64,000 bases of DNA from a bacterium (GTDB taxonomy: Bacteria > Elusimicrobiota > Elusimicrobia > Elusimicrobiales > UBA9959), in contig JAJYJH010000006.1 of NCBI GenBank assembly GCA_021789695.1, forward strand, positions 1-64,000. Reading direction: 5' to 3'. The notes under the pieces are model-generated. The model was not told the DNA's origin and did no database searches. It was given only the letters and a program-made list of their open reading frames with translations. A program made the translations under genes and the position numbers. The first letter of the stretch is position 1, and the number at the start of each line of letters is the position of its first letter. Positions 28,195 through 63,100 of this stretch are shown here, piece by piece.

Positions 28195-31325
<3,131 letters not shown>

Positions 31326-31329
<4 letters not shown>

Positions 31330-36031: not shown

Positions 36032-36037
36032 TACACA

Positions 36038-36043
36038 ATTATA
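36038..36043 (-). promoter_or_regulatory. -10 box six bases before the PBP ATG
   Basis: TATAAT (36043-36038), then TGTGTA, then ATG at 36031. TTGCCT lies 18 bases upstream of the -10. The transcript is predicted to be leaderless. Confidence 0.6.
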
Positions 36044-36075
36044 TAGATTAACGGCGGCCGAAGGCAAAAGCGGTT

Positions 36076-36104
36076 TTGATAGCTTCCGCGGAAAATGGTA
36101 CATT
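36076..36104 (+). promoter_or_regulatory. Promoter of the foldase pair
   Basis: TTGATA (36076-36081), 17-base spacer, TACATT (36099-36104). The expected start near 36111 leaves about three bases before the ATG at 36114, so the leader is nearly absent. Confidence 0.6.
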
Positions 36105-36113
36105 CCTTCTAAT

Positions 36114-36917
36114 ATGAGAAAACTTGCCCTTCTTCTACTCGCAGCCGCGGCCCTTTCTTCCTGTTCGGGGAAAGACGACAAGGTCATAGCCAGGGTCGGC
36201 CCCGAGAAGATTACGGAGAGCTACCTGCAGGAGAAGCTGGCCGACATCAGCCCGGCGGCGCAGGAATATCTCTCCTCCAAGCCCGGGCGCCGGGAGTTCC
36301 TTGACGTGCTGATACACGAGCGGCTGATGCTGCTGGCCGCGCGCGAGAGCGGAGTGACCTCGGAAAAGGCCTACAAAGAGAAGGTGTTAGAGAAAGAGGC
36401 CGAGATGAAGGACGCGCTCAAGCAGTACAAGGACCTGCTGCTCACCCGTATGTGGATAGAGAAGATGCGAGACGGGAAGCTGAAGGTGACCGATCAGGAA
36501 ATCTCCGGCTATTACGCCGCGCATCCCGACGAAGTGCGCCTGGAGCATATCCTGCTGCCCAGCTACGAAGAGGCGGACAAGGTCTACCGGAAGCTGAAGG
36601 CCGGCGCGGATTTCGACAAGACGGCCAAGGCCTACTCCCTGGACAAGGACAACGTGCGCCTGCCGCCGGTCATGTACGGGGAGTTCGTGCCGGAACTGGA
36701 GGACATGGCCTTCAAAATGAAGGTCGGGGAGACGCAGGGCCCGGTCAAGACCGAGATGGGCTTCCATATACTCAAGAAACTCAGCGAGGACAGGGTGCCG
36801 CAGGCCGAGGCGGCGGAACGGATCCGCAGGATACTGGAAAAGAAGAAGTTCGACGACTATCTGGCTAAGTTCCAGAAAAAGAACAAGGTGGAGGTGCTGG
36901 ATGAAGACTATAAGTAA
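36114..36917 (+). CDS. Lipoprotein peptidyl-prolyl isomerase (PpiC/SurA type)
   Basis: The 267-residue protein starts MRKLALLLLAAAALSSCSG, a signal peptide with lipobox LSSC, so C17 is probably lipidated. An N-terminal SurA-like helical region (DVLIHERLMLLAARESG) is followed by one parvulin domain (about 140-245) with LEHILLPS, AYSLDKDNVRLPPVMYG and VKTEMGFHILKKL. Parvulins fold outer-membrane proteins in the periplasm. The 3' end overlaps the next, related gene by 17 bases, so the two are made together and may have arisen by duplication. Confidence 0.87.
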   Translation: MRKLALLLLAAAALSSCSGKDDKVIARVGPEKITESYLQEKLADISPAAQEYLSSKPGRREFLDVLIHERLMLLAARESGVTSEKAYKEKVLEKEAEMKDALKQYKDLLLTRMWIEKMRDGKLKVTDQEISGYYAAHPDEVRLEHILLPSYEEADKVYRKLKAGADFDKTAKAYSLDKDNVRLPPVMYGEFVPELEDMAFKMKVGETQGPVKTEMGFHILKKLSEDRVPQAEAAERIRRILEKKKFDDYLAKFQKKNKVEVLDEDYK

Positions 36918-45011: not shown

Positions 45012-45770
45012 CTACTGGCCGAAGTTAAAGCCCTTGAATAGGTCCTGCTCCGCCTGGTTGCCTCCAGCGTTGGCGGGAGCCGCGGCCGGGGCCTGCTGCG
45101 GGGCCGTCGAGCCCGGAAGATTATCCATGGATCCCTTCCCGCTGCCTATCGGCTCCACTATCACCGCGCGGACTCCCTCGGCGAAGGCAAGAAATCCGGT
45201 GTCAAGGTTATAGTACAGTCTGAAAGGGGACTGCTTGATCTGCGGCTCGTAGGCCTTGCCAAGGTTCTTCTTTTCCTGCTCCCAGCCCGGGTTGTAGACC
45301 AACTTGCCGCGCACGTCCACGACGTTGTCTTTTACCGGCAGCGAAAAATGGATCTTGTACAGCCCCTGCGTGTCCGTTATGCCCGGGGCGAACGACAGGT
45401 TTATGGAAGAATTGGCGTTCTCCTGCAGCGCCATAGCGTCCCCGCCCATGTCCCCGAGGCCGCCGCCACCGCCGCCCGCGGCGGCGGGACCCAGGTTCGG
45501 CACCACCTTGACCGTAACTCCCTCTATCGGATTGCCCTTGTAGTCGGTCACCAGGCCCTGTATATTGCCGTCCAGGAACAAACCCATCCTAGTGGTGGAG
45601 AAGAACAAAAACTCGTTGCTGCCGGTCACCTTCTTGGTGAGCGACAGGTCCGTTACCCGCTGGTCAGTATAATCCACCACCTTCAGACTCTTCATTCCGC
45701 CAAAGCAACCGGCCAGCGGAAGGGCCAGCAGGAGCAGGGAGGCCGTTTTGATCGCGTTTCCGTATTTCAT
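45012..45770 (-). CDS. Outer-envelope lipoprotein at the end of the motor operon
   Basis: The 252-residue protein has a lipoprotein signal (LLLLALPLAGC, C22). The globular part has a carboxypeptidase-regulatory-like Ig strand set (GNIQGLVTDYKGNPIEGVTVKVVP ... TDTQGLYKIHF) interrupted by a Gly-rich loop (about 97-112). The tail is Pro/Ala/Gln-rich. It starts eight bases after the MotB stop and is probably co-transcribed with flbD-motA-motB. An accessory role for the stator or envelope machine is inferred from position only. Confidence 0.7.
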   Translation of the reverse strand: MKYGNAIKTASLLLLALPLAGCFGGMKSLKVVDYTDQRVTDLSLTKKVTGSNEFLFFSTTRMGLFLDGNIQGLVTDYKGNPIEGVTVKVVPNLGPAAAGGGGGGLGDMGGDAMALQENANSSINLSFAPGITDTQGLYKIHFSLPVKDNVVDVRGKLVYNPGWEQEKKNLGKAYEPQIKQSPFRLYYNLDTGFLAFAEGVRAVIVEPIGSGKGSMDNLPGSTAPQQAPAAAPANAGGNQAEQDLFKGFNFGQ

Positions 45771-45777
45771 AAAAAAC

Positions 45778-46536
45778 TCAGGGGCCCGCCGGGGCCGGGG
45801 CTTCTCCGGCGGGGACGGGAGATTCTGGCGACGGCGCCGACGGCGCCTGAGCGGCGGCCTGCGGCGCGCCGGCAGGCGGGGCCTGCGACTTGGGGGCCCC
45901 GGCGGCGCCGGGGGCCGCCGGGTAGGCCGTGTTCTTCACGAAGAAGACCACCCTGCGGTTCTTACGGCGGTCGGCCGGGGTATCGTTGGGCACTATGGGA
46001 TGGTACTCGCCGTAACCCACAGCCGCGAGGCGCTGAGGGTCAAAGCCGTTGTTTATCATGTACTTGACCACGTTGGTGGCGCGGGCCGTGGAAAGCTCCC
46101 AGTTGGAGGCGAACTGTCTGGTGGTTATCGGGATATTGTCGGTGTGGCCTTCTACCACTATATCGTGCTTTTCCGCCAGCTTGCGGAGCACGGGCATCAG
46201 CTTTCCCATCTCGGACCTCATCTGGTCGGTGAGGTCCGCGCTGCCGCTGCCGAAGAACACCTGCTGGTTCTGCTCCTCCAGCGAGATGCGCAGGCCCTCC
46301 CTGTTCATGTCCACCTGGCCGGCCATCTGTTTCTTCTTTATCATCTGCTGTATTTCCTGCTGCGCGTTCTGCATGTCCTTGTTCAGCGCGGCGGACAGCG
46401 CGTAGAGGATGACGAAGAAGCAGACCAGCTCCGTCATCAGGTCGGCGTAGTTGACCATCCACGGCGGAGCCGGGTGGCCTATCGGAGCCACCCTCGAGTC
46501 GTCCTCGGGGATCATCCCCTTTACTCTTACGGGCAT
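45778..46536 (-). CDS. motB: MotB-type stator protein
   Basis: The 252-residue protein has a short cytoplasmic N-terminus and one transmembrane helix. PPWMVNYADLMTELVCFFVILY places the proton/sodium-binding aspartate at D32, the same number as in E. coli. A plug/linker helix (about 50-85) and an OmpA-like peptidoglycan-binding domain (about 90-205, HTDNIPITTRQFASNWELSTARA and DRRKNRRV) follow. The last 40 residues are Pro/Ala-rich, unusual for MotB. With MotA it forms an ion channel that drives movement. It follows motA by six bases. Confidence 0.92.
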   Translation of the reverse strand: MPVRVKGMIPEDDSRVAPIGHPAPPWMVNYADLMTELVCFFVILYALSAALNKDMQNAQQEIQQMIKKKQMAGQVDMNREGLRISLEEQNQQVFFGSGSADLTDQMRSEMGKLMPVLRKLAEKHDIVVEGHTDNIPITTRQFASNWELSTARATNVVKYMINNGFDPQRLAAVGYGEYHPIVPNDTPADRRKNRRVVFFVKNTAYPAAPGAAGAPKSQAPPAGAPQAAAQAPSAPSPESPVPAGEAPAPAGP

Positions 46537-46542
46537 AAAACC

Positions 46543-47325
46543 TTAAGCGCCTTCCTTCTTGACCGCCTTACGCTTCTCCGGCTCCAGGTAGGCCTTCAGG
46601 TTGGCCTCCACCACGCTGGGCGTGGCGCCGCTCTGCAGCAGCAGCACGCCGCGGATAATGATCTCCTTGACGAACAGCTCCTCCTCGGAGCGGTGCTTCA
46701 GCTTGCCTGCCATCGGCAGAAACAGCCAGTAGCCAGAGCCCAGGCCGAAGAACGCGGCCGCCAGAGCGAGCGCCATGCGGCGCGGCACCTGGGCCACGTC
46801 GTCTATGGACGAGAGCATCAGGATCATGCCGAGCACGGTGCCGATGATGCCGAACGCCGGGGCGTAGGTGCCCAGCGCGTTGAAGATCTCGCGGCCGGCC
46901 TTGTGGCGCTCGCGGATGAAATCGATCTCGGTCTCGAGCATGTTGCGGATGAACTCGTGATCCGCGCCGTCGATGACCAGCTGCACGCCGCGTTTCAGGA
47001 AGTCGTTGTCTATGGCCTGAGCGTCGGCCTGAAGGGCCAGGAAGCCCTCCTTCTTGGCCTTCTGCGAGAGGGCCACGAAAGTGGAGACCAGTTTGGAGGT
47101 ATCCTCGCCCTTGGAGGTCAGGACCTTCTTGAGCACCTTGCCCGTGCTGATCACGGAGGAAAGAGGGAAATTGACGAGTAGAGCGCAGAACGTGCCGCCC
47201 ATGACTATCAGAAAGGCCTCCATGTTCATGAACGGCTTGAAGCCGGCCACGCCTTCCTGGATGTAGACGGCCCCGATCACGAAGCCGAGGAAAACTATTA
47301 TGCCGCTGAACGTTGCTATGTCCAT
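46543..47325 (-). CDS. motA: MotA-type stator protein
   Basis: The 260-residue protein has four transmembrane helices in the MotA arrangement: 1-22, 36-56, 150-172 and 184-205, with YAPAFGIIGTVLGMI and the large cytoplasmic loop between helices 2 and 3. In that loop the segment AKKEGFLALQ has K91 and Q99 where E. coli has R90 and E98, two residues known to contact FliG. It belongs to the flbD-motA-motB-lipoprotein run. The family is certain; whether the partner is a flagellum is doubtful. Confidence 0.93.
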   Translation of the reverse strand: MDIATFSGIIVFLGFVIGAVYIQEGVAGFKPFMNMEAFLIVMGGTFCALLVNFPLSSVISTGKVLKKVLTSKGEDTSKLVSTFVALSQKAKKEGFLALQADAQAIDNDFLKRGVQLVIDGADHEFIRNMLETEIDFIRERHKAGREIFNALGTYAPAFGIIGTVLGMILMLSSIDDVAQVPRRMALALAAAFFGLGSGYWLFLPMAGKLKHRSEEELFVKEIIIRGVLLLQSGATPSVVEANLKAYLEPEKRKAVKKEGA

Positions 47326-47641: not shown

Positions 47642-50122
47642 TCACTCCGTCTTGCCCTTGCCTTTCAGCGCCCACTTCATCCTTTCGGCGAAGGAGACCT
47701 CCATTGTCTTGTAGCGCTCCAACTCGGCGCCGAGCTCGGCCAGGCGGGCCGCGTCGGCGGAAGCCTGGGATTCCGCGGCGGCCCTCGCCTCTTCGGCCCG
47801 CTCGACCTCGGTCTCCAGCTGGACCGCGGCCTCCTGGGCCTGCAGCTCCAGCTGCTGCAGTTTCTGCTTCAGGAAAAGCAGCTCGGACTCAAACTTGGAG
47901 CGGTTCTCGCTCTCCAGCCTGAGGGTCTCGGCCTGGGCTTTGTAATTCTCCGATTGCCTGGCGGCCTCGGCCTCGAACGAGCCCTGGCGCGCCTCCAGCG
48001 CGGCGTACCTCTCGCGCAGCGCGGCGTACTCCGCGGAAAGTTTCTGGCGCTCGGTCTCCGCCGCGTAGGCGGCCTTAACGGCCTCGGAGGCCCGGGCGGC
48101 GGCCTCGGACTCCCGGGCGGCGGAGGCGGCGGCCAGCTCGTCGCGGCGGCGCAGCTCCGCGGCGGAGCGGGCCAGGCGCTCCTCGTATTCCGTCTCCCGG
48201 GAGGCCCTGCCTTTGCCGGACGCGGCGGCTTCGGCCGAAAGCCTGCGGTTCTCCGCTTCGAGGCGGGCGGCGGCCTCGGAGGCGGCCTCAAGGGCGGCGC
48301 GGTTTTTCTGCAGCTCGGCGGAGTAGGCCGCTTCCAGCTGCTGCTTCAGCGCGGCCTTCTCCTGCTCGGAAGCCGCCTCGTACTTCATGCGCATCTTGGA
48401 GACGCTGGCGTCGAAATCCGCCTGCCTCTCGGCGGCAATCTTGGCCAGCTCTGCCTGGCGCTCCGAGGAGGTCCTGTTTATCTCCTCCTGATGGGTGGAA
48501 ACGAGTTTGGAGACCTCCTCCTGGCGGGCGGCGGCCTGCCGGGCGAGCTCTTCCTGGTGCTGCGAGATCAGCTTGGAAACTTCGTCCTGATGCGCGGCGG
48601 CGGCCTTGTCGGCTTCCTCGCGGCCGCGCGAGGTGAGGCGGGCTATCTCGGCCTGGCTGGCGGCGACCGCGCTGGAAAGTTCCGCCTGGTGCGCAGCGGC
48701 CAGGCGGGCGAACTCCTCTTGGCGCGCGCGGACGGCCTCCGCCATCTCCTCGGCGTGCTTGCGTGCCAGCTCGGCGCCGTAGCCGTTCTTGATCCTGTCT
48801 ATCTCCGCCTTGGCGGCGGCGGCCCGGGACTCAAGCTCCTGCTGGTGGACCGCGTTCAGGCCGGAGATTTCATGTCTGAGTTTCTGTATCTCCTCCACCT
48901 GCCCGGCCATAGTCTGGGCCAGCTGCATCTTCTCCAGCTTCAGCTGGGAGCGCTCCTTCTCCAGCACGGCGTTGATGGCCTGCACGCGGGAGACGAAGCC
49001 CTTCAGTTTCATCAGCTCGGAAAGCGCGCGGACCTTCTCGCCCGACACGTCGGCCAGAGCCTTTTCTTTCTCCTGCAACTGGGCGTCGTAGCCTTCGGCC
49101 TGCTTGCGCAGCGCCTCGTTCATCTCGGCGTTCTTGCGGTCTGAAATGGAGCCGATCTCAGACTGGAGGCGGCCTATCTCGCCCTGCAGCTTCTCCATCT
49201 CGGCGGCGTGCTTTTCGGCCGAGTGCCTGGCCTCCATGCGGGAGGTCTCCTCGCGGGCCTTCAGGGAGGCGTTCTCGGACTTTATCTCGGCGATCTCCCG
49301 TTCTTTCTCGGGGATTATCTTGATATAGGCCTCTATAGCGGCCTTCTCGCGGTCGGCGCGGGCCAGGTCGTCGCGCAGTTTGGAGGCTTCGCGGTCCGAC
49401 ATGCTCTTCTCGAGCGAGATCTTGCGGTACTCGTCCTCCACATCGCGCAGCTTCTCCGCCGCGGATTTGAGGGAGCGTATCGTCTCCTCGCGGGAGGTGA
49501 TCTCCTTCTGCCACTGGGCCTTCTCGTCCAGCCAGCGGCGCTCCATCTCCTGCAGGCGGTAGATGAAATGGCTCTCGACGTCCTTGCCCTGGACCTCGCG
49601 TTCCGACATCTGCTTCTGCAGCGTCTGCATCCAGGTCTCGCGCTCCTGCGCGAGGCGTGTTTCGAGCTCCTTGATCTTGCCCTTGAGGGTGAGCCGCTCC
49701 TCCTCTATCTCGTGGTCGCGGCGGTCGCGGCGCATTTTGTCCTGGATGTCCTTGAGCGAGGACTCCACGCGCGAGGAGAGGGCCTCGTCCTGCTGGTTCT
49801 TCAGCGTGGCGAGCAGGGCCCTCTCTTTCTCGGCCGACAGGAGCTTCTCCATGTCGTTGATCTTCTTCTCGAGCTTGTCCTTCTCTTCCTGCAGGCGGCG
49901 CGCCTCCGCGTCGTCCTTTTGAGGCGGCTGGGCGGCCGCCTGCTGAAAGCCGCCATGCGGCAGACCCGGGAAAGCGGCCTGCGGCGGGCGGGGCAGCTGC
50001 GGCATGGACGGCAGGGAAGGCGCCCCGCCGGGAGGAAGCGGCGGAAGCCCAGGCTTCATGCCGCCCGGGGGAAACGGGGGCAGGCCGGGAGGCTTTGGCA
50101 ACTTGTTGTCCTTGTCGTCCAT
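47642..50122 (-). CDS. Long coiled-coil protein with a Pro/Gly-rich head and eleven-residue repeats
   Basis: The 826-residue protein has no signal peptide and no membrane helix, so it is probably cytoplasmic. Residues 1-70 are Pro/Gly-rich (PPGLPPFPPGG, GLPPLPPGG). From about residue 75 to the end it is an almost unbroken coiled coil rich in Glu, Lys, Ala, Gln and Arg. Residues about 427-575 contain at least ten consecutive eleven-residue repeats, for example QEEFARLAAAH, QDEVSKLISQH, QEELARQAAAR, QEEVSKLVSTH, which suggests a stiff, right-handed coil. The start at 50122 (MDDKDNK) was chosen over 50149. It lies between a FliF-FliG fusion and flbD-motAB, so a scaffold role for the motor is likely but inferred. 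Confidence 0.8.
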   Translation of the reverse strand: MDDKDNKLPKPPGLPPFPPGGMKPGLPPLPPGGAPSLPSMPQLPRPPQAAFPGLPHGGFQQAAAQPPQKDDAEARRLQEEKDKLEKKINDMEKLLSAEKERALLATLKNQQDEALSSRVESSLKDIQDKMRRDRRDHEIEEERLTLKGKIKELETRLAQERETWMQTLQKQMSEREVQGKDVESHFIYRLQEMERRWLDEKAQWQKEITSREETIRSLKSAAEKLRDVEDEYRKISLEKSMSDREASKLRDDLARADREKAAIEAYIKIIPEKEREIAEIKSENASLKAREETSRMEARHSAEKHAAEMEKLQGEIGRLQSEIGSISDRKNAEMNEALRKQAEGYDAQLQEKEKALADVSGEKVRALSELMKLKGFVSRVQAINAVLEKERSQLKLEKMQLAQTMAGQVEEIQKLRHEISGLNAVHQQELESRAAAAKAEIDRIKNGYGAELARKHAEEMAEAVRARQEEFARLAAAHQAELSSAVAASQAEIARLTSRGREEADKAAAAHQDEVSKLISQHQEELARQAAARQEEVSKLVSTHQEEINRTSSERQAELAKIAAERQADFDASVSKMRMKYEAASEQEKAALKQQLEAAYSAELQKNRAALEAASEAAARLEAENRRLSAEAAASGKGRASRETEYEERLARSAAELRRRDELAAASAARESEAAARASEAVKAAYAAETERQKLSAEYAALRERYAALEARQGSFEAEAARQSENYKAQAETLRLESENRSKFESELLFLKQKLQQLELQAQEAAVQLETEVERAEEARAAAESQASADAARLAELGAELERYKTMEVSFAERMKWALKGKGKTE

Positions 50123-50189
50123 AAATAACGCGCCCAATGCCGGTATCACTTGGAATATTCTAAAAAAATCCGGTTTCTTTTTGGTTACA

Positions 50190-50235: not shown

Positions 50236-52209
50236 CTAGCGCCCGACGCTGGCTTTGAAGCTGGCGAGCCATTCGGCCGCGGCGGGATCGCCGGAGAGGA
50301 CCGCGTACTTTTCGTAGGCCGCCACCGCGTCGTCTATCCTCTGCAGCCCGTAATAGGCCGCGCCCAGGTACTGCCAGGTCTGCGCGTCGCCCGGGTTCAG
50401 CGAGGCCGCGTACTCAAGATACTGCAGGCTCTCCTGCACCTGGCCCTGGCTGTACATGTTTATGCCGGCCGCGGCGTACTGGGAAGCCTGCTCCGCCTGC
50501 TCCGGGGCAGGGCCCGCGGCCGCCGGCGCGCCGTCCCCGGCCTTCCGGGCGCCCAGGCTCTCGAACTTCCTGCGGCGCTCGTCCTCCGAGGACATCTCCG
50601 CGCCGTCTATGATGTAAACCTCCTGGGAATTGCCCTCGCGCGGGCTGATCCGGCCCTCGGCCTCCAGCTTCTTGACGGCGTCCAGGATCTTGGTCTGGGC
50701 CTCGTCCTGCTGGGCCGGCGTGACCTCGCCGGAATATTCCATTATCTCCTTGATGGCGCTGACGGCGCCCTGGGACATATTCTTGAAGAACTTATCGACG
50801 ATGGCCGGGTCCGCCTTGGCGAGGGCCCGGGCTATATCCTCGTTGCCGACGCTGCGGATTATGGTCTGCAGGTCCTTGTCGGAGTAGTTGGGCAGGTCCT
50901 CGAACATCAGGATGGCCTTCTTGATCTTCTCGTAGATATCCGGTTTCTGCGTCTTCAGATACTCCAGAATGTTGCGCTTGATGGCCGGGTCGGCGTCCTC
51001 GAGCATCTTTATCATGCGCTCTATACCGCCCATCACAAAGTCCACGCTCTCGCGGATGTCCTTGTCTATGGCCTCTATCTGCTCGCGCGTGGCCTGGCGC
51101 ACGGTCAGCGCCTCCAGCGCTATCTTGGACTGCATCTCCACCGGCAGCATGGAAAGGGCCTGGCGGGAAAGGTCCGGGCGCATATAGCTGAGCACCACGG
51201 CTATCACCCACGGGTCCTCTTTGCGCAGCAGGAACAGGTAGATGAGGCGCTTGAGGTTCTCCTCGGTCAGGTAGGTGAATGGCTCGAATTTCTTCATAGA
51301 CTCGTCCTCTTCTTCCTCGGCCTTGGACCCGTAGGTCATATCTATGGCCTGGTGGCCCTCGGTCTCCTCCTTCCCCTCCTCCTCGCCCTCGCCTCCGCCC
51401 TCCTCTCGTTTATCCTCTATGTTGACCTCGGCGCCCGGCTTGGCCATCAGCGCCTTGATGTATTTGCGGAAGAAGCCCCACAGCGGCCCGAACAGGAACA
51501 GCAGCAGCAGCAGGAAGAGCAGCGCGTAGAGCAGCGGCAGGTAGACCGAAGGGCGCTTCAGGTCATCCATCGGATTGGCCGCCTTGAACTTGGTCGGCTT
51601 GAAGGTCACGGTCGGATCGTCCTTGCCGTGGATCTTATAGGGCACCAGGAAGTCGTTTATGCGCTCCTTGGCCAGGTTGAGCGCGGCCTGCGGCAGCGTG
51701 TCGTCGTAGATGACGGTGACCAGCAGCCGGGTGATGTCGTTGTCCATCCCGTAGCGGATCTCCTGGGCCCCCTTGGACTGCTGAGCCTGCTGGCCCTGCG
51801 CGACCGCCGGACGCTTATTGTCCCCGCCCAGGACCGACTTGGGCTTGGGGATGCCTGGCAGAATAAAGTCGGTGGAGCCTCCGTTCTGGTCCCCCGCGCC
51901 CTTCTCTTTGTACTGCTGCATCGCGCCAAAGGCCTGCTTGCTCTGGTCGGCCCTCTTAGCCACAACTTCCAGCCCGACGTCCGCAAAGACGAAGGAGCGG
52001 TCCCGGCCCAGTATAGGGTCCAGAATGTCCCTCTTTATCTTGGTCTCTATCTCGCGCCGCATGGTGTCCTGCTTTTCCATCAGCGAGACGTCGACCGCGT
52101 TCGTGTCGGCAGAGGACGCGGTCCCCGACGTGTCCGCCTGGGCGGAGGAAAGGACCGGCAGGACCGGCAGCGCGAGCAAAAGCGCCAGGAGCAGCTTCCT
52201 CATACGCAT
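50236..52209 (-). CDS. FliF-FliG fusion protein with signal peptide and TPR tail
   Basis: The 657-residue protein has a signal peptide (residues 1-24) and a periplasmic region (25-220) that resembles only the FliF ring-building segment next to its last helix (ETKIKRDILDPILGRDRSF... and VTVIYDDTLPQAAL). One strong transmembrane helix (222-245) and an acidic linker (265-305) follow. The FliG middle and C-terminal domains span about 313-525 (LRKEDPWVIAVVLSYM for EHPQ; LMFEDLPNYSDKDLQTIIRSVGNEDIARAL; KFFKNMSQGAV). A TPR tail (575-650) ends the protein. In flagella FliF and FliG are separate proteins. A second ATG at 52203 gives a better signal start. It follows the PorV-TPR gene by 154 bases. Confidence 0.85.
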   Translation of the reverse strand: MRMRKLLLALLLALPVLPVLSSAQADTSGTASSADTNAVDVSLMEKQDTMRREIETKIKRDILDPILGRDRSFVFADVGLEVVAKRADQSKQAFGAMQQYKEKGAGDQNGGSTDFILPGIPKPKSVLGGDNKRPAVAQGQQAQQSKGAQEIRYGMDNDITRLLVTVIYDDTLPQAALNLAKERINDFLVPYKIHGKDDPTVTFKPTKFKAANPMDDLKRPSVYLPLLYALLFLLLLLFLFGPLWGFFRKYIKALMAKPGAEVNIEDKREEGGGEGEEEGKEETEGHQAIDMTYGSKAEEEEDESMKKFEPFTYLTEENLKRLIYLFLLRKEDPWVIAVVLSYMRPDLSRQALSMLPVEMQSKIALEALTVRQATREQIEAIDKDIRESVDFVMGGIERMIKMLEDADPAIKRNILEYLKTQKPDIYEKIKKAILMFEDLPNYSDKDLQTIIRSVGNEDIARALAKADPAIVDKFFKNMSQGAVSAIKEIMEYSGEVTPAQQDEAQTKILDAVKKLEAEGRISPREGNSQEVYIIDGAEMSSEDERRRKFESLGARKAGDGAPAAAGPAPEQAEQASQYAAAGINMYSQGQVQESLQYLEYAASLNPGDAQTWQYLGAAYYGLQRIDDAVAAYEKYAVLSGDPAAAEWLASFKASVGR

Positions 52210-52363: not shown

Positions 52364-53929
52364 TTACTGCACCTGCTTCATGAAATTCTTGACCATCGCG
52401 TTGTTGGGGTCTATCTCCAGCACCTTCTGCCAGATTACCTTGGCCTTGTCCTTCTGGTCCATCAGGTAGAAAGCGCTGCCCATGATCTCGAGGGCGGTCT
52501 CGTTGTTGGGCTCGACCTCCAGGATGTCCTGGGCGCGCTTCATGGCCATGTCGTACTTGCCCTCGTAGATGGCCTGGCGGGCGTCGTAGGTGCGCTGGTC
52601 GATGTAGGTGAACATCTGGGGCCCTTCGGGCTTGCGGGTCAGTTCGGACACGCCTGCCTCCTTCTCCACCATGTTCAGCAGCGAGAGCAGCCTGTCGTCG
52701 TTAGGGCTCTTGTTGAAAGCCTGGCGCAGGATGTTGACGGAGGAGTGCAGGTCCCTGCCGTCCACGTAGGCAATGATTCCGCGGCGGATCAGGCTGGGAA
52801 CTTCCTCGCTGCCAGTGGCGTTGGGCTCATAGTCCATGGCGCCCTGGAGCCGGGTCACCATGCGGCGGATTTCGGCGTTGCCGGGATCGGCGTCCATCGC
52901 GGCGCGCAGCCTGTCCATAGCGCGGGTAAAATAGCCGGCCTTGAAGTACTCCAGCGCCTGGCGGATTATCGCGCGGACCTCGCTGTCGTGCTTGGCCTTG
53001 TTGGACTGGCCGAGGCGCATGCTGACCGAGAAACGGGTGGTGGAACCCAGCGCGTGCATGCCCTGGGAAATGTCGAAGCTGAGGCTCTTGTACTTGATGC
53101 CTACTCCTAGGTCGGCCTCCTGAATGGCCGGGGATCCCATCACGCCGAAGCGCAGGGCCGCCCAGTACATCAGCCAGTATTCGCCGCCGAAGCGCCACTG
53201 CGTAGAGGCGCTCTGCGGCTTTATGAAGTCCAGGCCGAAGAGCAGGCTGCCTTTGAAGAGAGAGAGGGCCTGGCCGAACTTGAGCGTCAGCGGCAGCTTG
53301 TCCTCGGTATCGCCGGAGACCATCGAGAAGACGTTCTGCACGCCCAGGGCCATGCGGTAGGTGCTGGAGAACTTCTGCAGCATCGTCACGTCGAGAGCCT
53401 TGAAGGAGTCGGCGGAGGTGTCGAGCTGGCGGGTAATATCCTTGGCCATGAAGCCGAAGGAGAGCTGGTCCGACACCTCGCGGCCCCAGGAGAAGGCAAG
53501 CGCGCGCTCGCTGCTGTCGAAAGTGCCGAGGTGCTTTATGTCCACAATGTCGGCGCCGGAGGGATCGGCGGTTATAGAGACCTTCTCGAAGCCGACGGAC
53601 TTAAGCTGGGTCATGCTGACGGCCCAGGTGCCTTTGTCGGTGGTGGGATAAGCGAAAGTGAAGAAGTTCAGCGTGGTCTGGTCGAACAGGGTGGCCTGCA
53701 TCATGCTGAATTCCTTGCGGTGCAGCAGGGTAAGGGCGGCCGGGTTCCAGTAGGAGGCGGAGGCGTCATCGGCCACCGCGAAGAAGGCTCCGCCCATGCC
53801 GAGCCCGCGGGCGCCGGCGCCGTAATCCATGAACTCCCCGGGCTGGCCGCCGCTCTGGGCCAGGGCCGGAACCGAGAAAAGGGCAATAAAAAGCCCCACG
53901 GCAGAGCCGAAACGCAATATGCGCTTCAT
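52364..53929 (-). CDS. PorV/PorQ-like barrel protein with TPR tail, behind a c-di-GMP riboswitch
   Basis: The protein has 521 residues from the chosen start. A signal peptide (MKRILRFGSAVGLFIALFSVPALAQ) is followed by the PorV hallmark MDYGAGARGLGMGGAFFAV with DDASASYWNPAAL, a beta-rich barrel region (to about residue 305) and a helical tail with TPR-like units (about 313-520, for example YDMAMKRAQDILEVEPNNETAL and KAKVIWQKVLEIDPNNAM). An ATG at 53980 is in frame, four bases after the riboswitch, but gives no signal peptide at the N-terminus. Barrel plus TPR suggests an outer-membrane channel with a periplasmic docking arm for the following motor-like genes. Confidence 0.8.
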   Translation of the reverse strand: MKRILRFGSAVGLFIALFSVPALAQSGGQPGEFMDYGAGARGLGMGGAFFAVADDASASYWNPAALTLLHRKEFSMMQATLFDQTTLNFFTFAYPTTDKGTWAVSMTQLKSVGFEKVSITADPSGADIVDIKHLGTFDSSERALAFSWGREVSDQLSFGFMAKDITRQLDTSADSFKALDVTMLQKFSSTYRMALGVQNVFSMVSGDTEDKLPLTLKFGQALSLFKGSLLFGLDFIKPQSASTQWRFGGEYWLMYWAALRFGVMGSPAIQEADLGVGIKYKSLSFDISQGMHALGSTTRFSVSMRLGQSNKAKHDSEVRAIIRQALEYFKAGYFTRAMDRLRAAMDADPGNAEIRRMVTRLQGAMDYEPNATGSEEVPSLIRRGIIAYVDGRDLHSSVNILRQAFNKSPNDDRLLSLLNMVEKEAGVSELTRKPEGPQMFTYIDQRTYDARQAIYEGKYDMAMKRAQDILEVEPNNETALEIMGSAFYLMDQKDKAKVIWQKVLEIDPNNAMVKNFMKQVQ

Positions 53930-53983
53930 GGAGGCCCAAATAGCCAAGGGGGCAAAGGCATTACAAAGAATGCTTTTCATCGT

Positions 53984-54189: not shown

Positions 54190-57100
54190 TCAGTGTATTA
54201 TGCCGACCTTGCGCAGCACCACCTTGCTCCCCTTGGGACTGGACGCCTTGACCCTCACGATATATCCTCCCTTGGAGACTATGCCGCCAAGGCCGTTTGT
54301 CCCGTCCCAGATCACATGATTCGGCCCCAGCGTGCCTCCGGGGGTGCCGCTGTCAAAATGAAACTCCCTGACGACATAGCCCAGCAGATCATAGATGGTC
54401 ATTGTGACCTCGGCATTGTCATTGAGAATGTAATTGATATCCGCCCTACCCTCCACTCCGCCCTTGCGCAGATCCACCGGATTGGGGTAGTTGGAAACGT
54501 AGACCGGCTTGCCGGAGCTGTCGTTATAGAGCGGGCTGAACAGGCTTGAACCTATCGAGGTGCCGGCCGGCGTGGAGACTGCCGACCAGTCCGAAGCCTG
54601 GCCGGCGAAGTTCCAAGCCCGCACCCGGTAAGTATAATACGTGTCAAGCGCCCTCGGCGTCTCGCCCGGGACGTTGGGGTCGCCGACAGTATAGATGTTG
54701 TCCACGGCACCGCCCATCTTGAAGCCGGGCACCGCGGCTATGGTCCTCCAGACGGGGTCGGTACCGCTCCGCTCCTGTATCTGGTAGGACATTATGTTGG
54801 ACTCGGGATCAGCGGACTGGTCCCACTTCAGGGTATAGGTCTGGCCGGAAGAGACCCCGGCCGGCACCTGCGGCTCCGGCGCGCCAGGGGTGGTGGGCTT
54901 GGTGGTGTCCAGGCGGTAGATCAACACCGGGACGCCGTTGACGCTGGGCACGTAGGTGCCGTCGGCCATGCGCCCGCGCACCGACAGGACATAACCGCGG
55001 TCGGAAACCGTCTCCCCCCACGCCGTATGAGGGCCCTTGAAGGAGCCCTGCACGCCGCGCTGCTCTATACTGAACGTGGTGCCGTCCACTTTGGAGACCA
55101 GCATTATCTCGTTGCCGACGTATACTATGCCCTCGGCGGCGAAGCCGTCGGTGGACTGCACCGTGAAGGAGGAGGTGTTGATCTCTATCCGGCTGGTCAG
55201 CTTGGTTATATGGCCGGGCGAAAGGGCCACGTTGGAGACCTTGCCGGAAAGCACGTCCCCTAGGTTCTGCCAGGACCCGGTCTCCCCGGTCGGGTCCAGA
55301 TAGTTGTCCCCGAGCGCCACCTCGTACTGCACCACGGGCCCGGAAGCCGGGTCCCACATGGCCGGCAACTGGGTGGTCTGCGCGGACCAGGCCGACGGCA
55401 CGGCGCCGAGCTGGGAAACGGCCTCCAGGACGCGGGAGTTGTTGACGCTGTTCCCGACGAAGTAGAGAGGTTTGCCGCTGCCGTCGTCCACGATCTTGTC
55501 AGGGATATAATCCAGGTTCAGGTCGAAGTCCAGCAGCCCGTCTCCGTCTATGTCGAACGAGGGCAGGCCGGAGTTGTTTAGCGAGACATTGACGCACTTG
55601 CCGGTGCCGTAGAAATCAAAATTATCCGGGATCCCGTCGCCGTTGATATCGATCAGCGGCTCGGCGGCCTTGCAGCCCGAGGCGGTGTAGCCGGTGATCC
55701 AGCCCTTCCAGCCGGGCGGCACGCTGCCGTACTGCACGCTGGCGGTGTTCGCCAGCGGCAGGTTGTTGGAGCCCATCACGACGTTCCCGCTGGAGTCCGT
55801 CAGCGCGTAGGCCGGGTAGCCGTTAGGAGCGATCATGATGTTCTTGTAGACGGGCGTGAGCGGGATGACGGCCGGGGCTATCAGCACCTCGTCGGAGGGC
55901 ATCGGATAGACGTCGCCGAAGTTCTGGCCGGCGGCCAGCGCCATCCCGCCTACGCCGCGGATGTCGGTGAAGTTAGCCAGGGACAGGCTGGCGAGGTGGC
56001 CGAGCACGTTGGCGCCGGAGAGGTCAGTTCCGGAACTTATATCGCAGGTCAGATGGAACATGACGGGCGTCGTGGAGATGATCGTGTACGGCAGGTTGCC
56101 GTCCTGGATGTTTATGGAGATGCCGTTCTTGAACGGCTCCGTGGAGGAATGGTCCACGTAGCCGAGGAGTTCGTCGGTAATCGGGTTGAACGCGCCGGTC
56201 CCGTCGTCCTTCCACAGCGCCACCCGAGACAGGTCCCCGTCGCCCAAGCCGGTCACGGAGCCGGCGATGGTGCCGCCCTGCGTGATGACGAGCTGGCCCA
56301 CGTCCACGAAAGCGGTCCCGGTATTCATGGTGAACGTCAGCATCGGCACGTTCCGGGTCCCCCGCTCCGCCGATTTCGGGGCGAGGGTGTTGGCGGCGAC
56401 CGCCAGCGTGACGGCCTGTATCGGCACCAGGCTGGAACCGTACGGGTAAACGTCCGTGTAAGTCCCCTTCGGCAGGGTCTTCGTGATGCCGAAGTAGATG
56501 TCGGGCGAAACGTCGTGAGGCGCGTTGACCGTCAGCCACGACTTGTCGCGTATCATCACGCCCACCTTGTTGGCTTTTATCGCCTGCTCGCCTATATCGT
56601 AGACGACGAAGAAGGTCTGGGCCAGCGGACTCAGCGTCTGCACCTGCGACAGGCTGACCGTTATCTGCGTGTTGAGCGGGTTGTTCTGGTCGAACAGGTC
56701 CACCTTGCGCACCAGATCGCCGACCGGGTGGTTGATCTGCGGCGTCAGCACGTCGCCCAGCTTCAGGCCGCGGGCAGTGATGTCCAGGTACGGGCGGCCT
56801 AGGGCGTCGATGCCCGTACTGTCGTAGGTCATCAACTCGGCGTTGCTCAGGTAAACGTTGCCCGAGGACGGGAAGCCGGCCGTGGACTGCACTACGAGGT
56901 GGAACGGAACCGTATCCGTGGACGCGAAGTAGGAGACCAGCGAGGTCCTGGCCTCCGAGATGTTCACGTCGTTCACGTCGAGGATGTCGTTCTGGTTCGA
57001 GTCCTGGTAGATGGACACGAATTTAACGTCGGTGTTCTTGCCGAAAGGTGCGTTCGGGTCATTGGAGGCGCCGGTGCGCTGCAGCTTGATGGCGCTCCAG

Positions 57101-60100
57101 CGCGCGTTGCCGGCGTCCGTAATCAGGTTAAAGCGCGTCATCGCCACCCCCGTCTGGGCCTGGCCGACCCCGCCCGCCTGGACAAGGTCCGCGGCCATGT
57201 CGTACACGCCGAGGTTGACGTTGGACGGTATCTCCTTGATGGTGACCGGGGCGGTGTTGATCGGCCACGTAGAGAGCGTGATGGTGTTGGGGATGCCTAT
57301 CGTGAAGTTGGACGCTGAGTTGATGCTCAGCCCGACGGTAGAGCCGACCAGGGCGAACTGGGACAGGTCGTAGCTGACAAAGGCGCAGGCCGGGGTAGTG
57401 GTTATCACCATCGGCGTCTTAAGCACGATGTTGACGGTGCCCGAGGAGAAGGCCTCGTTGCCGTAGGACAGCAGATTGGGATAGTTGCCGGCCGTGTCCG
57501 AGGACGTGTCGGCGGAGTCCAGCAGGCAGTTGCCGTTGGAGTCCTTCCAGACCTTGACCAGGTCTATGTCCGAATCGTTCGCCGTGCCCACCCGGTTCAC
57601 CTTTATGCCCTGCAGCAGCGCGGAGGTGTGGTCGACGCTCATCTTCATCGCCAGCAGCCCGACGTTCTTGTCGTTCTGCACCGCGGAGACCGGCGAGATG
57701 TCGTCCGGAGTAAGCGTCACGTTGTTCAGGGTCGGCATGACCACGGAGTTGGCGCTCTCAGCCGGGTCCAGGAACTGCGCGACGTGCCCGGAATTGGCCG
57801 GACCGAAGTAGAAGTTGGTTTCGTCCGGCACCTCGACGCCCAGCACGTCGTTCTGCGGCGTGAGCGCCGCGTTGGAGAAGTTGGAGGCCTTGTCTATGTC
57901 CATCGTGACGAAGACTACGGTAGGCGTGGAGCCTATCACCACGTAGTCCTGGTTGTTGAGGGCCGGATCCTTCACGTAGATCGTGGCCTTGCCGACCGGG
58001 TCGTTCGCGCCGAAACGGCCCTCGCCTATCAGCGTATCGGAGGTGTCCTGGCCGGTGACCGGGTCGCGGTCGAAGGTGCCGTTGCCGTTGTCCTTCCAGA
58101 CCCTTATATCCGCCACGTCCGAGTCGTAACCGTTGAGGCCGGACGGCTGTACGCGGGAGAGCCTGAAGCCGGTCCAGCGCACGCCGTAGCCGGACGTCGT
58201 GAGCGTCATCTTCATGAACGGATAGTTGAGCCAGCCCTGCTGCACGGCCATGCCCAGCGCCGCCCCGGAGGAGTGGTTGACCACGGGCGTGTTGAACACG
58301 CCGCGCGTGACCATCGTGATCGCCCCCGCCGCGAGGCCGGAGTAATGGACGATCTCGTTGTCGGCCATCAGGTACCCGGCGGAGGAGAGGCCGGCGGTGG
58401 AGGTCACCAGCCAGGCCGCGTCCATCGGGCCGGGGCTGGTCACGTTCTGCGCCAGCCGTACGGTAGGGGTCGAGACCCCGCCGCCGTAAGCGAACACAGG
58501 CTCGGTCAGCACGGTCATCGTGCTGGGGGCGGAAATGATCTCGCGCACCTGCGAGACGTAGGTCAGGTTGGAGGTGGAGGAATAGACGTTCGGCAGCGAG
58601 ATGGAGTTTTTCGCCGGATCGTCGAAGTAGGGGCTGTTCTGCGGGAACGACCCCCGCGCCATGTACGCGCCCAGCGTCCGGGGGTTGCCGAGCGAGTCGT
58701 TGGGCATGGCGGAGTCCCGGATGTCGTAAGTCAGGAAATAGCGCTGCGAGACGTTGGCCGCCTTGGCCATGTCCGGGGTAATAATGCGCTGGGCGGTGCT
58801 GATGTCGACCCTGGCCACCAGCGGGCCGTAGATGGTATTGCCGAAGGTGCCGGTGCCTATCAACTGGTCGTTCGGGCCGAGGAAGCCGTTATTGTCGGAG
58901 TCGTACCAGATCTTGACGGCCGACACGTCGGGGATGGCGGTGCCGTCCTGTATCGCGCTGCCGGTGGCGTAGACCAGCATCCAGCGCCACAGCGCGTCGG
59001 CGACGTCGGTCTGCATCGTGAACTGCAGAATGGGCTGGTTCACCGCCTTCTGCTGCAGGTTCTCGCCGGTTATCGTATCGGAGGCCTTGACAAGCACGTT
59101 GTCGGGGTACTCGTTGACCTTGCCGATGAGCGAAAGCGTCTTGCCCGGGGCCATAACGCCTATGTTCAGCGGGCTCATGGTCTTGGTGGACGGAGCCACC
59201 GAGAAGTAGTCGGTAGTCCGCACGGCCATGCCCAGATACGCCGTATCGGAAACGGTGGCCAGCGGGTCTATGTCGTAAGTCAGGAAATAGTCCTTCGGGG
59301 ACACGTAGATGGTCTGGCCGTCCATGTTACCGCTGCTCCCGATCAGCGGCAGCACCGCCTGCCCGGAGACCACCGTGCCGCTGGACCACGCCATCTCCGG
59401 AGTGCCCTCGGCGCCGCGGGTCAGGCCGCCGAACGCGTTGTTGAGCACGTCCACGGTGCTGTAGTAGACGACCTCCTTGAGCGACGGGTCCGGCTGGCCG
59501 TCGTTGATGATCAGGCGGCCGGGCGCCATCGGGAAAGGGCTGTCCGACGGGAAGAAATTCTGTATATTGGTCACCCTGAGGACGGTGTCGGTGGACACGA
59601 GCGGGGTCCTGAGCGTGTCGTAGGGGAAGACGCGCTTGTTGACGCTCGGCAGCACCACCTCGGTGTCGTGGACCGTCCCGGTGGTCTCCAGCAGGCCGTC
59701 GCCGTTGGAGTCGTACCAGAGGCTGACGCGTTTGACGTCGGTCACCTTGTTCCAGAGGGCGGCGTTGCCGTTCTCGGACGCGGGCACCCAGCGGTCCAGT
59801 TTGAGACCGTTCCAGATAGCGGAACCGGTGGTACCCTTGATCTGCATCGTCAGCCTGGCCACGGGCTGGTTCACGTCGTTCTGCGTGACGAAAGATGGCT
59901 TGCTGAAGTTGTTGGGCGACGACTTATTCACGTCGGACAGGTAGACCACGTCGGCCGTGGCGTACAGCGGCACCGTGGAAGAGACTACCGGAGAGAACGC
60001 CCCGACCACGCCGTCCACCAGGCTGACGCCGGAGGTTTCCAGGCGCGCGCCGTGCGTGACGCCCGGCACCGCGTCCGGCTGGAACTCATAGACCACGAAA

Positions 60101-63100
60101 TAGGTCTTGGTGTCTATCGACACCTCGCCGTCCACGCCCGGGTTGTATAGCGGCAGCACGAAGGTGCCCGGGTCGGCCGGGTTGAAGGTCGGCGGGTTGG
60201 ACGGATCCGTGACCTCCTTGTCCACGGCCTGATCGAAGACCCCGTTGCCGTTGGAGTCCAGGAACAGGCGCATGCTCTTTATGTCCTGGCCTGAGCCCGT
60301 GCCTGTCTTGATAATCCTGAAGGATTTGATGGTGCCCACGAAATTATCCGTCCAGGCGTGAATGGCCAGGAAGCCGGCGCGCTCCGTGCCCTGTTCCACG
60401 TAATCGTACTGCCCCGGGGAAACGCCTGGCTGCCACCAGGCCGCTATGTCGTCGCCGCTGATGTTGACCGTGGCAGGCTGGTTCAGCACCGGCGAGGTGG
60501 CGGTCTGTATCGGGAAGTTGTTGTAGGCCACGCCGACGAACGTGGAGTCCAGCACCACGAACGACGGGTTGTCCATCACCAGGCCGAACGTGCGCGGCGT
60601 GGCGGCCACGGTCGACATGCGCACGGCGAAGAAGAAGTTGCGCGGCGCGTCGGAAACTATGGCCGCGGTGGACACCTTGGCCTTGAGATTATCGAAGCGC
60701 CAGCCCATCAGGGTGGAGTCCCAGGTGCCGGTGGACATCAGGATGTCGGTCGGCGCGCCGCCGAGCACCGACTCCCCGTCGAAGAGACCCAGCTGGCCGG
60801 CCGTCGAATTGTCTGCGTACATGCCTATGTCTATGATGTCCGAATGCGACAGCGTGCCGGAACTCTTGATCTGCACGGAATCCAGGTAGGCCGGCGGAGC
60901 GCCCACGGGCATCGTCTGCATAGTCAGGCGCAGCATCGGCACCGGGGCCGGAACGTCGGGAATCAGGCCGTCGCCCTGGTAGATGGCGGTTTTCGTGATG
61001 CCGATGGAGGTCTTGCTGACCGGCAGCGGGTCCTCCGGGGAAAAATCCCTGGGCGTTATTACGAGGCCCGACAGGACTACGTCCCCGTCCGACTGCTGCG
61101 GCAGGCCGCGGTCGCCGTCGTTGGTATAGCCGTAGATGCCGGGCATATTGTAGTCCGTGACGTTGACCTTCAGCGTCTCGACCATCGTGTCGTAAAGCTG
61201 CAGCGTGCGCTGCCCCTGGTCGGCTTTGACGAAGGTATAGTCCGTGGTATTGTTGATGGCGTCGCGCAGGTCGGCGGAGCCGCCCGAGTTGGTCGCCATG
61301 TTTACCTTGCCGACGTAGTAATCGCCGTTCACCGGGTCGCCGGTGGCGACGTTGCCGAAACGGTCCCTGACCTTCAGCGTTATGTAGCCCGGAGTTTGCA
61401 CGCGCAGCGGGCTGGCCAGCGTGTAGGGATGGTGCAGCGTGAAGTAGGCGGCCGTACTCGGGGTTATGTATTCGTCCTGGGAGATCTGCGGGAAACTGAC
61501 GTTGTCCCTGGAGATATAGGAGTTCGCGGTTATCGTGGCGGAGCCGACTATCTTGTCCCAGACGTAGATGTTGGCGAACGAGTAGCCCGCCGGGATGCTT
61601 ATGTCGTAGGGGTTGGTATTCAGCAGCTTCCAGCTCGCGTTGGAGTCCACGACCTGGGCAGTGGGGTCTATGCCGCCGAAAGTGGTATTGCGAACGGCCG
61701 AGAAGCGCACCGTTACCGGCGTATCCGTGGTTGTGTTGTTGTCGTAATAGTCCTTGAGCGCCGCCGTCACCACCGTGGGCGTGGTTATCCCCGCCGCATA
61801 GCTGGCGTATTGCACCGTGGAGCCGGCAATCAGCCGCCTGGCCGGGGTATAGAAGGTTATGTGGTCAGGGGCCGCCGGCACCACCGTGTAGGACGAGACA
61901 GCCGGCAGCCAGCCCTTGGGCTGCACCGTAGTGACGGTGAGCTGGTGGGTCGGGAAGGACGTCAGCGTGTCTATCATGTAGAAGCTGGTGGTCGCCTGCC
62001 CGAGGGCCATTTTGGCGGTGCCCGGGTTCGGCACGAAATTGCCGGTGTTAGGCGCGGAGAACTGCACGTTCCCGCCGGAATCCGAGGCCATGGCGAACGC
62101 AATCCCCGCGCCGACCGCGTCCTCCTGGCCGCCGGCCACGGGCGTCGGGTTGCCGTAATGGTCCTCTATCGAGATCATGAAGTTCTGCGACGTCGCCCCG
62201 GCCGTCAGCACCTGGCCCGCCCCGGAACTGACGTTGACGCGGAAGGTCAGGTCCGGCTGGATGGTGACCGACTGAGTAGACGCGGCCCACCCCTGCTGGG
62301 CAGGCACCGAAACCTCGACTATCGGCCTTATCAGCGTGGAGGAGGACGGATACACCGAGGAGGCCGTGGTGTCCATATAATAGAACGTCGCGAAATAGGA
62401 GTTCAGCGGAATGTCCACGGTGGTCACCGTAGAGGCGAAGACCGGCGGGAAGGCCCCGGAAACGGAACTGGAGGCCGAGAAGGAGAACGAGTCGTTTATC
62501 AACGAGGGCTGGCGCGTATAGGTGGAGAGCAGCACCGTCACGTCCTGAGTGCTGACCGACGGGTTCTGGAACATATCCAGCAGGATAGCGCGGAAATACT
62601 CTACGTCGCCGAGAGGCCCGGTAATCTTGCCGGCCGTCATCGTGCGCGGGACGTTGCCGAAGGCCACCTGCGCGATCTGCGCCGGATCCATCTCCAGCTG
62701 ATGTATGGCCGGCTGCATCGAGCCGGAACGGGCCTCTATCTGCCAGTAGCCGGGGCGCCCGCCCTCGCCGGTGTTCGTGGCCGGAGAAGTGCCGGAGTAG
62801 GACGAGGCCCTGTCGTGGTAGCGGAACGAGGCCTGCGTCTGTCCGGGCAGGACCGGGACCGCGTTGATAAATTGGTCGTTCAGCGTGTTGCGGAAGCCGT
62901 AATCGCCGATATTGCCGAATGTGGCGATGTTCCCGCGGCCCAGCCCTTGATGCACGGTAATCTGGGAACTGGGCAGGCCCAGGTAGACATCGGTCTCGCC
63001 CTGCATGGTCACGTTGTTAAAATCGTCGCGGCGCTCCACGGTGAAGAAAGCGCCTGTCCCCGCCATTTCCTGGATGCCGACCAGCGCCGCCGGCTGGCTG

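Follow-up and report, generated by a model that had tools for sequence, protein, structure and literature searches.

FliG and FliF are generally known, as far as we are aware, only as parts of the flagellum. In the stretch of Elusimicrobiota DNA analysed here (64,000 nucleotides; hereafter the window) a single gene at 50236..52209 (-) joins domains of both, and the question that it raises is what such a protein is for in a bacterium without a recognizable flagellum. Its product of 657 amino acids (ATG start), here named FliFG, is a proposed rotor subunit. The main finding of this study is that the gene lies in a conserved operon, is one of three paralogs in a genome (2.45 Mb, 95.7% complete) which specifies no flagellum, and is spread throughout the phylum. 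We found no reports of a FliFG family, of a natural FliF-FliG fusion, of a non-flagellar FliF/FliG motor or of FliG or FliF in non-flagellar Elusimicrobiota in the open-access literature; subscription papers and preprints were not covered.

Architecture of FliFG

A preliminary description had read the frame as a natural FliF-FliG fusion with a signal peptide, one FliF-like ring domain ahead of a single helix, the FliG middle and C-terminal domains and a TPR tail, the N-terminal domain of FliG being absent, and this architecture was confirmed throughout. The hydropathy profile contains only two hydrophobic segments, residues 2-25 and 219-249. The first falls in the signal peptide (residues 1-25, MRMRKLLLALLLALPVLPVLSSAQA; 52135..52209 (-)), cleavage of which is inferred from the AQA motif in its terminal SSAQA, and the second is the single transmembrane helix (51463..51555 (-)), present in the predicted model as a helix spanning residues 220-255. 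Between them lies a ring domain (residues 36-206; 51592..52104 (-)) corresponding to the S-ring domain of FliF, RBM3 with its beta-collar insertion. The helix is followed by a disordered acidic and glycine-containing linker (residues 257-305, 51295..51441 (-); 19 D/E, 8 G, pLDDT <50 over most of it), the middle and C-terminal domains of FliG (residues 309-520; 50650..51285 (-)) and C-terminal TPR repeats (residues 570-650; 50260..50502 (-)), which were found by Pfam and in the model and are cytoplasmic by topology. The full-length model has a low pTM (0.31).

The FliG part is matched strongly over residues 309-530. Pfam identifies FliG_C (5.4e-29; 416-520), FliG_M (2.8e-10; 326-387) and, in the tail, TPR_2 (5.2e-7; 608-634), while the Thermotoga maritima FliG MC structure 1lkv is matched at 5.1e-30 with the single sequence and 3.3e-64 with the family profile; designed TPR proteins excepted, this fragment is the nearest solved structure by sequence. 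Only the linker, the transmembrane helix and RBM3 stand before residue 309, and no FliG_N precedes FliG_M, a weak FliG_N match (335-405) overlapping FliG_M itself. The linker occupies the position of the FliF C-terminal tail and the FliG N-domain. The chain has no space for RBM1, RBM2, TM1 or FliG_N, the signal peptide alone preceding RBM3. With 116 bits the protein also falls below the cut-off of the NCBIfam equivalog for FliG (TIGR00207, 226.7 bits).

Sequence-only support for the N-terminal domain is weak in the window copy, which has no match to Pfam FliF at E<=1, and its identification as FliF therefore depends on structural evidence, on the comparison of profiles and on the paralog on contig C4. 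The latter matches YscJ_FliF_C at 6.5e-4 (20.6 bits against a gathering threshold of 23.8, or 24.8 with neighbours in frame). The predicted fold of residues 36-206 is alpha-beta-beta-alpha-beta, the topology given for RBM3 with the beta-collar (PMC11481574). The best 18 Foldseek matches to the domain are all FliF models, nearly all of them cryo-EM structures of the S-ring (E 3e-8 to 1e-3). VIA-align superimposes it on residues 230-438 of Salmonella FliF (Z 10.8, rmsd 2.3 A, 101 residues), and hhalign against six flagellar FliFs places it on FliF columns 223-415, that is RBM3 and collar (96.7% probability, E 3.6e-10). SpoIIIAG appears among the weak profile matches. As parents of this domain, SpoIIIAG and the injectisome rings were rejected as weaker than FliF (VIA-align Z 7.7-8.8 versus 10-12), and matches to OsmC/Ohr-like proteins (Z <=9.0) reflect a common arrangement only and are unrelated. 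As judged from predicted models and alignments, FliFG has one FliF-like ring domain (RBM3 and beta-collar) and not three. The preliminary description would have been refuted by an N-terminal domain of another family, SpoIIIAG having been named for comparison with FliF, or by failure of the FliG part in profile searches, and neither was the case. It did not extend to the operon, the paralogs, the lack of a flagellum or the distribution set out below.

The fusion is not a product of chance or accident, because its architecture is conserved over the full length, end to end, in 23 relatives with 27-76% identity. Full-length relatives in 79 loci, drawn from many assemblies, rule out an error of annotation or assembly.

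The operon, its stator and the outer membrane

FliFG lies among genes on the same strand in an order which is conserved across the phylum (counts refer to loci with enough flanking sequence). Upstream is a PorV/PorQ-family outer-membrane barrel with C-terminal TPR repeats (52364..53980 (-); NCBIfam PorV_fam 111.8 bits, cut-off 90), present in 64/66 loci. FliFG is adjoined in 66/68 by a long coiled-coil protein with a proline-rich N-terminus and no visible signal peptide (47642..50149 (-)). There follow MotA, a stator subunit A of flagellar type (46543..47325 (-); 57/62), MotB (45778..46536 (-); 54/59) and a predicted lipoprotein with an LAGC lipobox and a weak carboxypeptidase-regulatory-like match (45012..45770 (-); 46/53). 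MotA was missing from the examined flank in five of 62 loci of the window type. Upstream of the barrel gene lies a giant surface protein with a FlgD-like/type-A-like C-terminal domain (54190..64000 (-)), found in 31/47 loci and not recognizable in the other 16. It is a single open frame rich in Ser, Thr, Ala and Gly which continues past the window to the end of its contig (C41) and comprises at least 9,875 codons, its start lying beyond the contig end; its tail scores under the TIGR04183 cut-off (17.3 against 23).

In other FliFG subfamilies many of the proteins are about 500 amino acids long and lack the TPR tail, and the usual order is PorV-type, FliFG, MotA, MotB, MotB. Both other paralogs of this genome and the FliFGs of other subfamilies (19 stretches from other genomes) mostly stand beside MotA, MotB and PorV-type genes. 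The cluster on contig C28 is of the two-MotB kind, with a divergent PorV gene which also passes the PorV_fam cut-off (102.1 bits). On C4 the MotA and MotB genes are some 6 kb off, and the cluster holds a coiled-coil/HATPase protein, a histidine kinase, a PorV/PorP-like TPR protein and a CHU_C protein.

Several further features were observed. The coiled-coil neighbour of FliFG in the C4 cluster (L004:6425-8410 (-)) ends in a histidine-kinase ATPase domain, and a second kinase and response regulators are nearby, a possible control input to that motor; searches with PADLOC and for CheW, which has no match in the genome, gave nothing on the control of the motor. Two different tandem MotB genes after one MotA (L005:10240-10914 and 10911-11570 (+)) recur in many genomes of the phylum and perhaps specify a heterodimeric B subunit. 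Elsewhere in the window a Kelch-repeat protein of 726 amino acids (22331-24511 (+)) has repeats of a kind also present in the giant protein of the C28 cluster, and housekeeping genes, all on the (-) strand, encode a Mfd-type repair helicase (28195-31329), a penicillin-binding protein (33887-36187), a methionyl-tRNA synthetase (13587-15266) and a polyphosphate kinase (7254-9335).

By profile matches the stator of the operon is of the flagellar MotA/MotP type and not ExbB-like. The pore prolines of MotA (equivalents of P173 and P222) are present in 58/58 sequences, the channel aspartate of MotB in 60/60 readable ones, and MotB, which has a plug region, keeps its OmpA-type peptidoglycan-binding anchor. 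The Zorya anti-phage system (ZorA/ZorB and effectors) was considered and rejected: ZorB models are matched by MotB alone, a match open to any MotB-like protein, and MotA, FliFG and the coiled-coil protein match none.

For the residues of the torque site we assume the numbering of E. coli FliG and MotA. The known contacts join MotA R90 with FliG D288/D289, and MotA E98 with FliG R281 (PMC12505986). In the FliFG family the position of D288 is E in 77/77 sequences and that of MotA R90 is K in 58/58. Position 289 is mostly non-acidic, R281 is replaced by G in 75/77, R297 is lost, and the position of MotA E98 is variable (E in 23/58, Q in 34/58). As read from these alignments the rotor-stator charge pair is kept as E288/K90, and the E98-R281 contact is gone on the rotor side. 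The residues fit, without proving, a working but altered torque interface which differs from that of E. coli.

In the Bacteroidota, PorV-type proteins, an SprA-like translocon and very large adhesins form the setting of gliding and type IX secretion (PMC9127263, PMC8986121). The surface proteins beside FliFG clusters carry CHU_C, Por_Secre_tail or FlgD-like tails, and that of the C28 cluster passes the TIGR04183 cut-off. SprA-like genes occur in 253/295 genomes of the phylum, every match being partial and below the curated cut-off (TIGR04189). In this genome there are two partial SprA/Sov matches, the best (E 2.4e-22) in a frame of 1,828 amino acids; a search with PF14349 (SprA_N) missed SprA here. 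No match over cut-off was obtained for GldM in 295 genomes or for GldL in 61.

Distribution and the absence of a flagellum

The genome contains three FliG_C genes, the window copy and those at C4:206421 and C28:31952. All are divergent FliF-FliG fusions, the FliG part being preceded by a signal peptide at the N-terminus, a ring-like domain and a transmembrane segment. Three MotA-type genes lie near the three FliFGs, and one further member of the MotA/ExbB family is found elsewhere. Neither FlhA nor, at E<=10, the FliMN_C domain of FliM/FliN has a match in this 95.7% complete genome, which rules out a flagellum located elsewhere in it and leaves it without flagellar export.

Among 295 genomes of the phylum, 120 have FliG_C and only three have FlhA. 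An ordinary FliG has about 330-340 amino acids; the FliG_C matches of the phylum are mostly in frames of 480-700, and two to eight FliFG copies occur in many genomes. Scanning 84,980 species genomes gave 109 relatives, and 79 loci were kept, all belonging to Elusimicrobiota or to MAGs titled only "bacterium". A plasmid search for other fusions gave nothing covering 80% of the query, the annotated matches being FliG genes. Flagellar genes are absent from the Elusimicrobia genomes examined in one paper (PMC7031533). One genome of our sample, G215, carries, near flhA, an ordinary flagellar fliF-fliG pair and has a separate FliFG, 61% identical to the window protein, on a different contig; the flagellar pair and FliFG are thus distinct genes, most likely with distinct roles. 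When a tree was built from the FliG M+C region, one branch separated 48 FliFGs from seven flagellar FliGs (support 95/98). Several rows of this tree have long branches and its outgroup is small, and it does not give the direction of descent.

Some loci depart from these patterns. Four FliG_C genes lie in frames of 960-1210 amino acids in place of the usual 640-690 (G209:C64:22727, G180:C79:8263, G277:C136:41001, G161:C44:22439) and may represent further fusions or long upstream open frames. In G246:C208 (L131), where flhA is present, the frames resembling FliF and FliG seem to be broken or split, and the genome is not among the FliG_C matches. Relatives with small genomes in this order (family f2) retain SprA-like genes, but almost all are without FliG_C.

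Several criteria by which FliG, FliF and the flagellum are defined were not fulfilled, and FliFG is therefore placed with the flagellar-type rotary motors as a variant, outside the flagellum proper.

Proposed function and comparison with known systems

Homology of the rotor and the stator to their flagellar counterparts is established, as are the domain architecture, the channel residues, the conserved operon and, for this genome, the lack of flagellar export; assembly of a ring, rotation, transfer of torque and output are inferred, there being no functional data, and ring formation was not modelled. We propose that the N-terminus of FliFG would be exported by Sec and its signal cleaved, and that many copies would form a periplasmic S-ring-like ring through the FliF-type RBM3 and beta-collar. 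Each copy would span the inner membrane once and hold its own FliG M+C in the cytoplasm, so that MS-ring and torque ring would be one covalent ring without FliG_N, FliM or FliN. MotA5MotB2 from the same operon, anchored by MotB to peptidoglycan, would use ion flow to rotate the ring. The co-encoded coiled-coil protein is probably held by the TPR tail, and torque is probably relayed to the outer membrane by the collar together with the lipoprotein and the TPRs which the PorV-family barrel has in the periplasm. It would then reach the giant surface proteins with type-IX-like tails, resulting in adhesin movement (gliding), export, or both.

That FliFG is a rotor driven by MotAB we regard as very likely. 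Its coupling to outer-membrane or surface proteins is probable, and we favour, with slightly less assurance, the full reading, in which MotAB drives a rotor that serves no flagellum and is linked to surface adhesins and to outer-membrane proteins of the PorV type. The output is most likely surface motility or powered adhesin export, again by inference, and gliding in particular is assigned only tentatively. That the Elusimicrobiota possess a distinct class of rotary machine, in which MotAB drives a ring made of FliF-FliG as one protein, independently of the flagellum and its export system, to turn or move giant adhesins at the outer membrane, and that this is their gliding or powered-export motor, is a suggestion we make without quite being persuaded of it.

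The main rival concerns this output. The FliFG-MotAB ring might energize type-IX-like secretion in place of GldL-GldM, export proceeding through an SprA-like translocon and PorV without any gliding. The PorV-family gene of the operon, scoring over its cut-off, the neighbours with CHU_C or Por_Secre_tail domains, and the wide occurrence of SprA-like genes where no GldM or GldL is found over cut-off all agree with such a role. Many genomes have SprA-like genes without FliG_C, however, including nearly all of the small-genome relatives, and export there must work without FliFG or by another motor. Because SprA-like genes also occur in lineages lacking FliFG, the motor is not needed for type IX export in general, and we hold powered export in place of gliding to be rather unlikely, without dismissing it.

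Nor can it be taken for granted that the ring turns. It could be a static scaffold for secretion or adhesion, similar to SpoIIIAG or the inner ring of injectisomes, with MotAB working by push-pull in the manner of TolQR/ExbBD and FliG M+C doing no more than docking the stator. The RBM fold is common to SpoIIIAG and PrgK/EscJ rings, and SpoIIIAG is a weak profile match, but the clearly better agreement with FliF, a stator of flagellar and not ExbB-like type, and retention of the D288 equivalent make this an improbable account. Least credible is a remnant or regulator left by a lost flagellum and having no motor role. The near absence of flagella from the phylum, as judged by FlhA, and the loss of R281 and R297 would suit a relic; full-length conservation across the phylum within a conserved operon, the multiple copies in many genomes, an intact stator with every channel residue present, and the coexistence of FliFG with an ordinary flagellar cluster in G215 would not.

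The rotor driven by MotAB, which we prefer, would be a natural minimal covalent rotor with its own stator, and would imply that a rotor-stator module can persist apart from the type III export machine. FliFG would offer a simple setting in which to test how MotA passes torque to FliG when FliM/FliN are lacking and how small an MS-ring can be and still work, and it bears on how the flagellar motor could arise from, or yield, a different machine. For uncultured Elusimicrobiota which have PorV-type, SprA-like and giant surface proteins and no recognizable GldLM, it suggests a source of energy and a means of movement as well.

Among known systems, the Agl-Glt gliding machinery of Myxococcus likewise employs stators of the MotAB/TolQR type for surface movement free of a flagellum, but we know of no FliF/FliG rotor in it. 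The type IX/gliding apparatus (GldL-GldM, SprA, PorV and the 669-kDa adhesin SprB; PMC9127263, PMC8986121) resembles the FliFG system in placing an ion-driven motor of 5:2 type near PorV/PorP-family proteins, an SprA-like translocon and very large surface proteins, and differs from it in that the motor here is MotAB with a FliF/FliG ring, GldL and GldM not having been found over cut-off. With the flagellar motor FliFG shares the FliF S-ring domain, FliG M+C, the channel prolines and aspartate of MotA/MotB and the peptidoglycan anchor. It departs from that motor in being one chain, in the lack of RBM1/RBM2/TM1, FliG_N, FliM/FliN and, in this genome, FlhA, in the addition of a TPR tail, and in an operon which holds PorV and a giant surface protein. 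A functional FliF-FliG fusion is known in Salmonella and an engineered Vibrio FliFG forms MS-rings (PMC11481574), and a covalent FliF-FliG rotor is therefore plausible. Those fusions arose by mutation or construction within a complete flagellum whose FliF and FliG are both full, whereas that of the Elusimicrobiota is natural, forms a phylum-wide family and makes do with a minimal FliF part.
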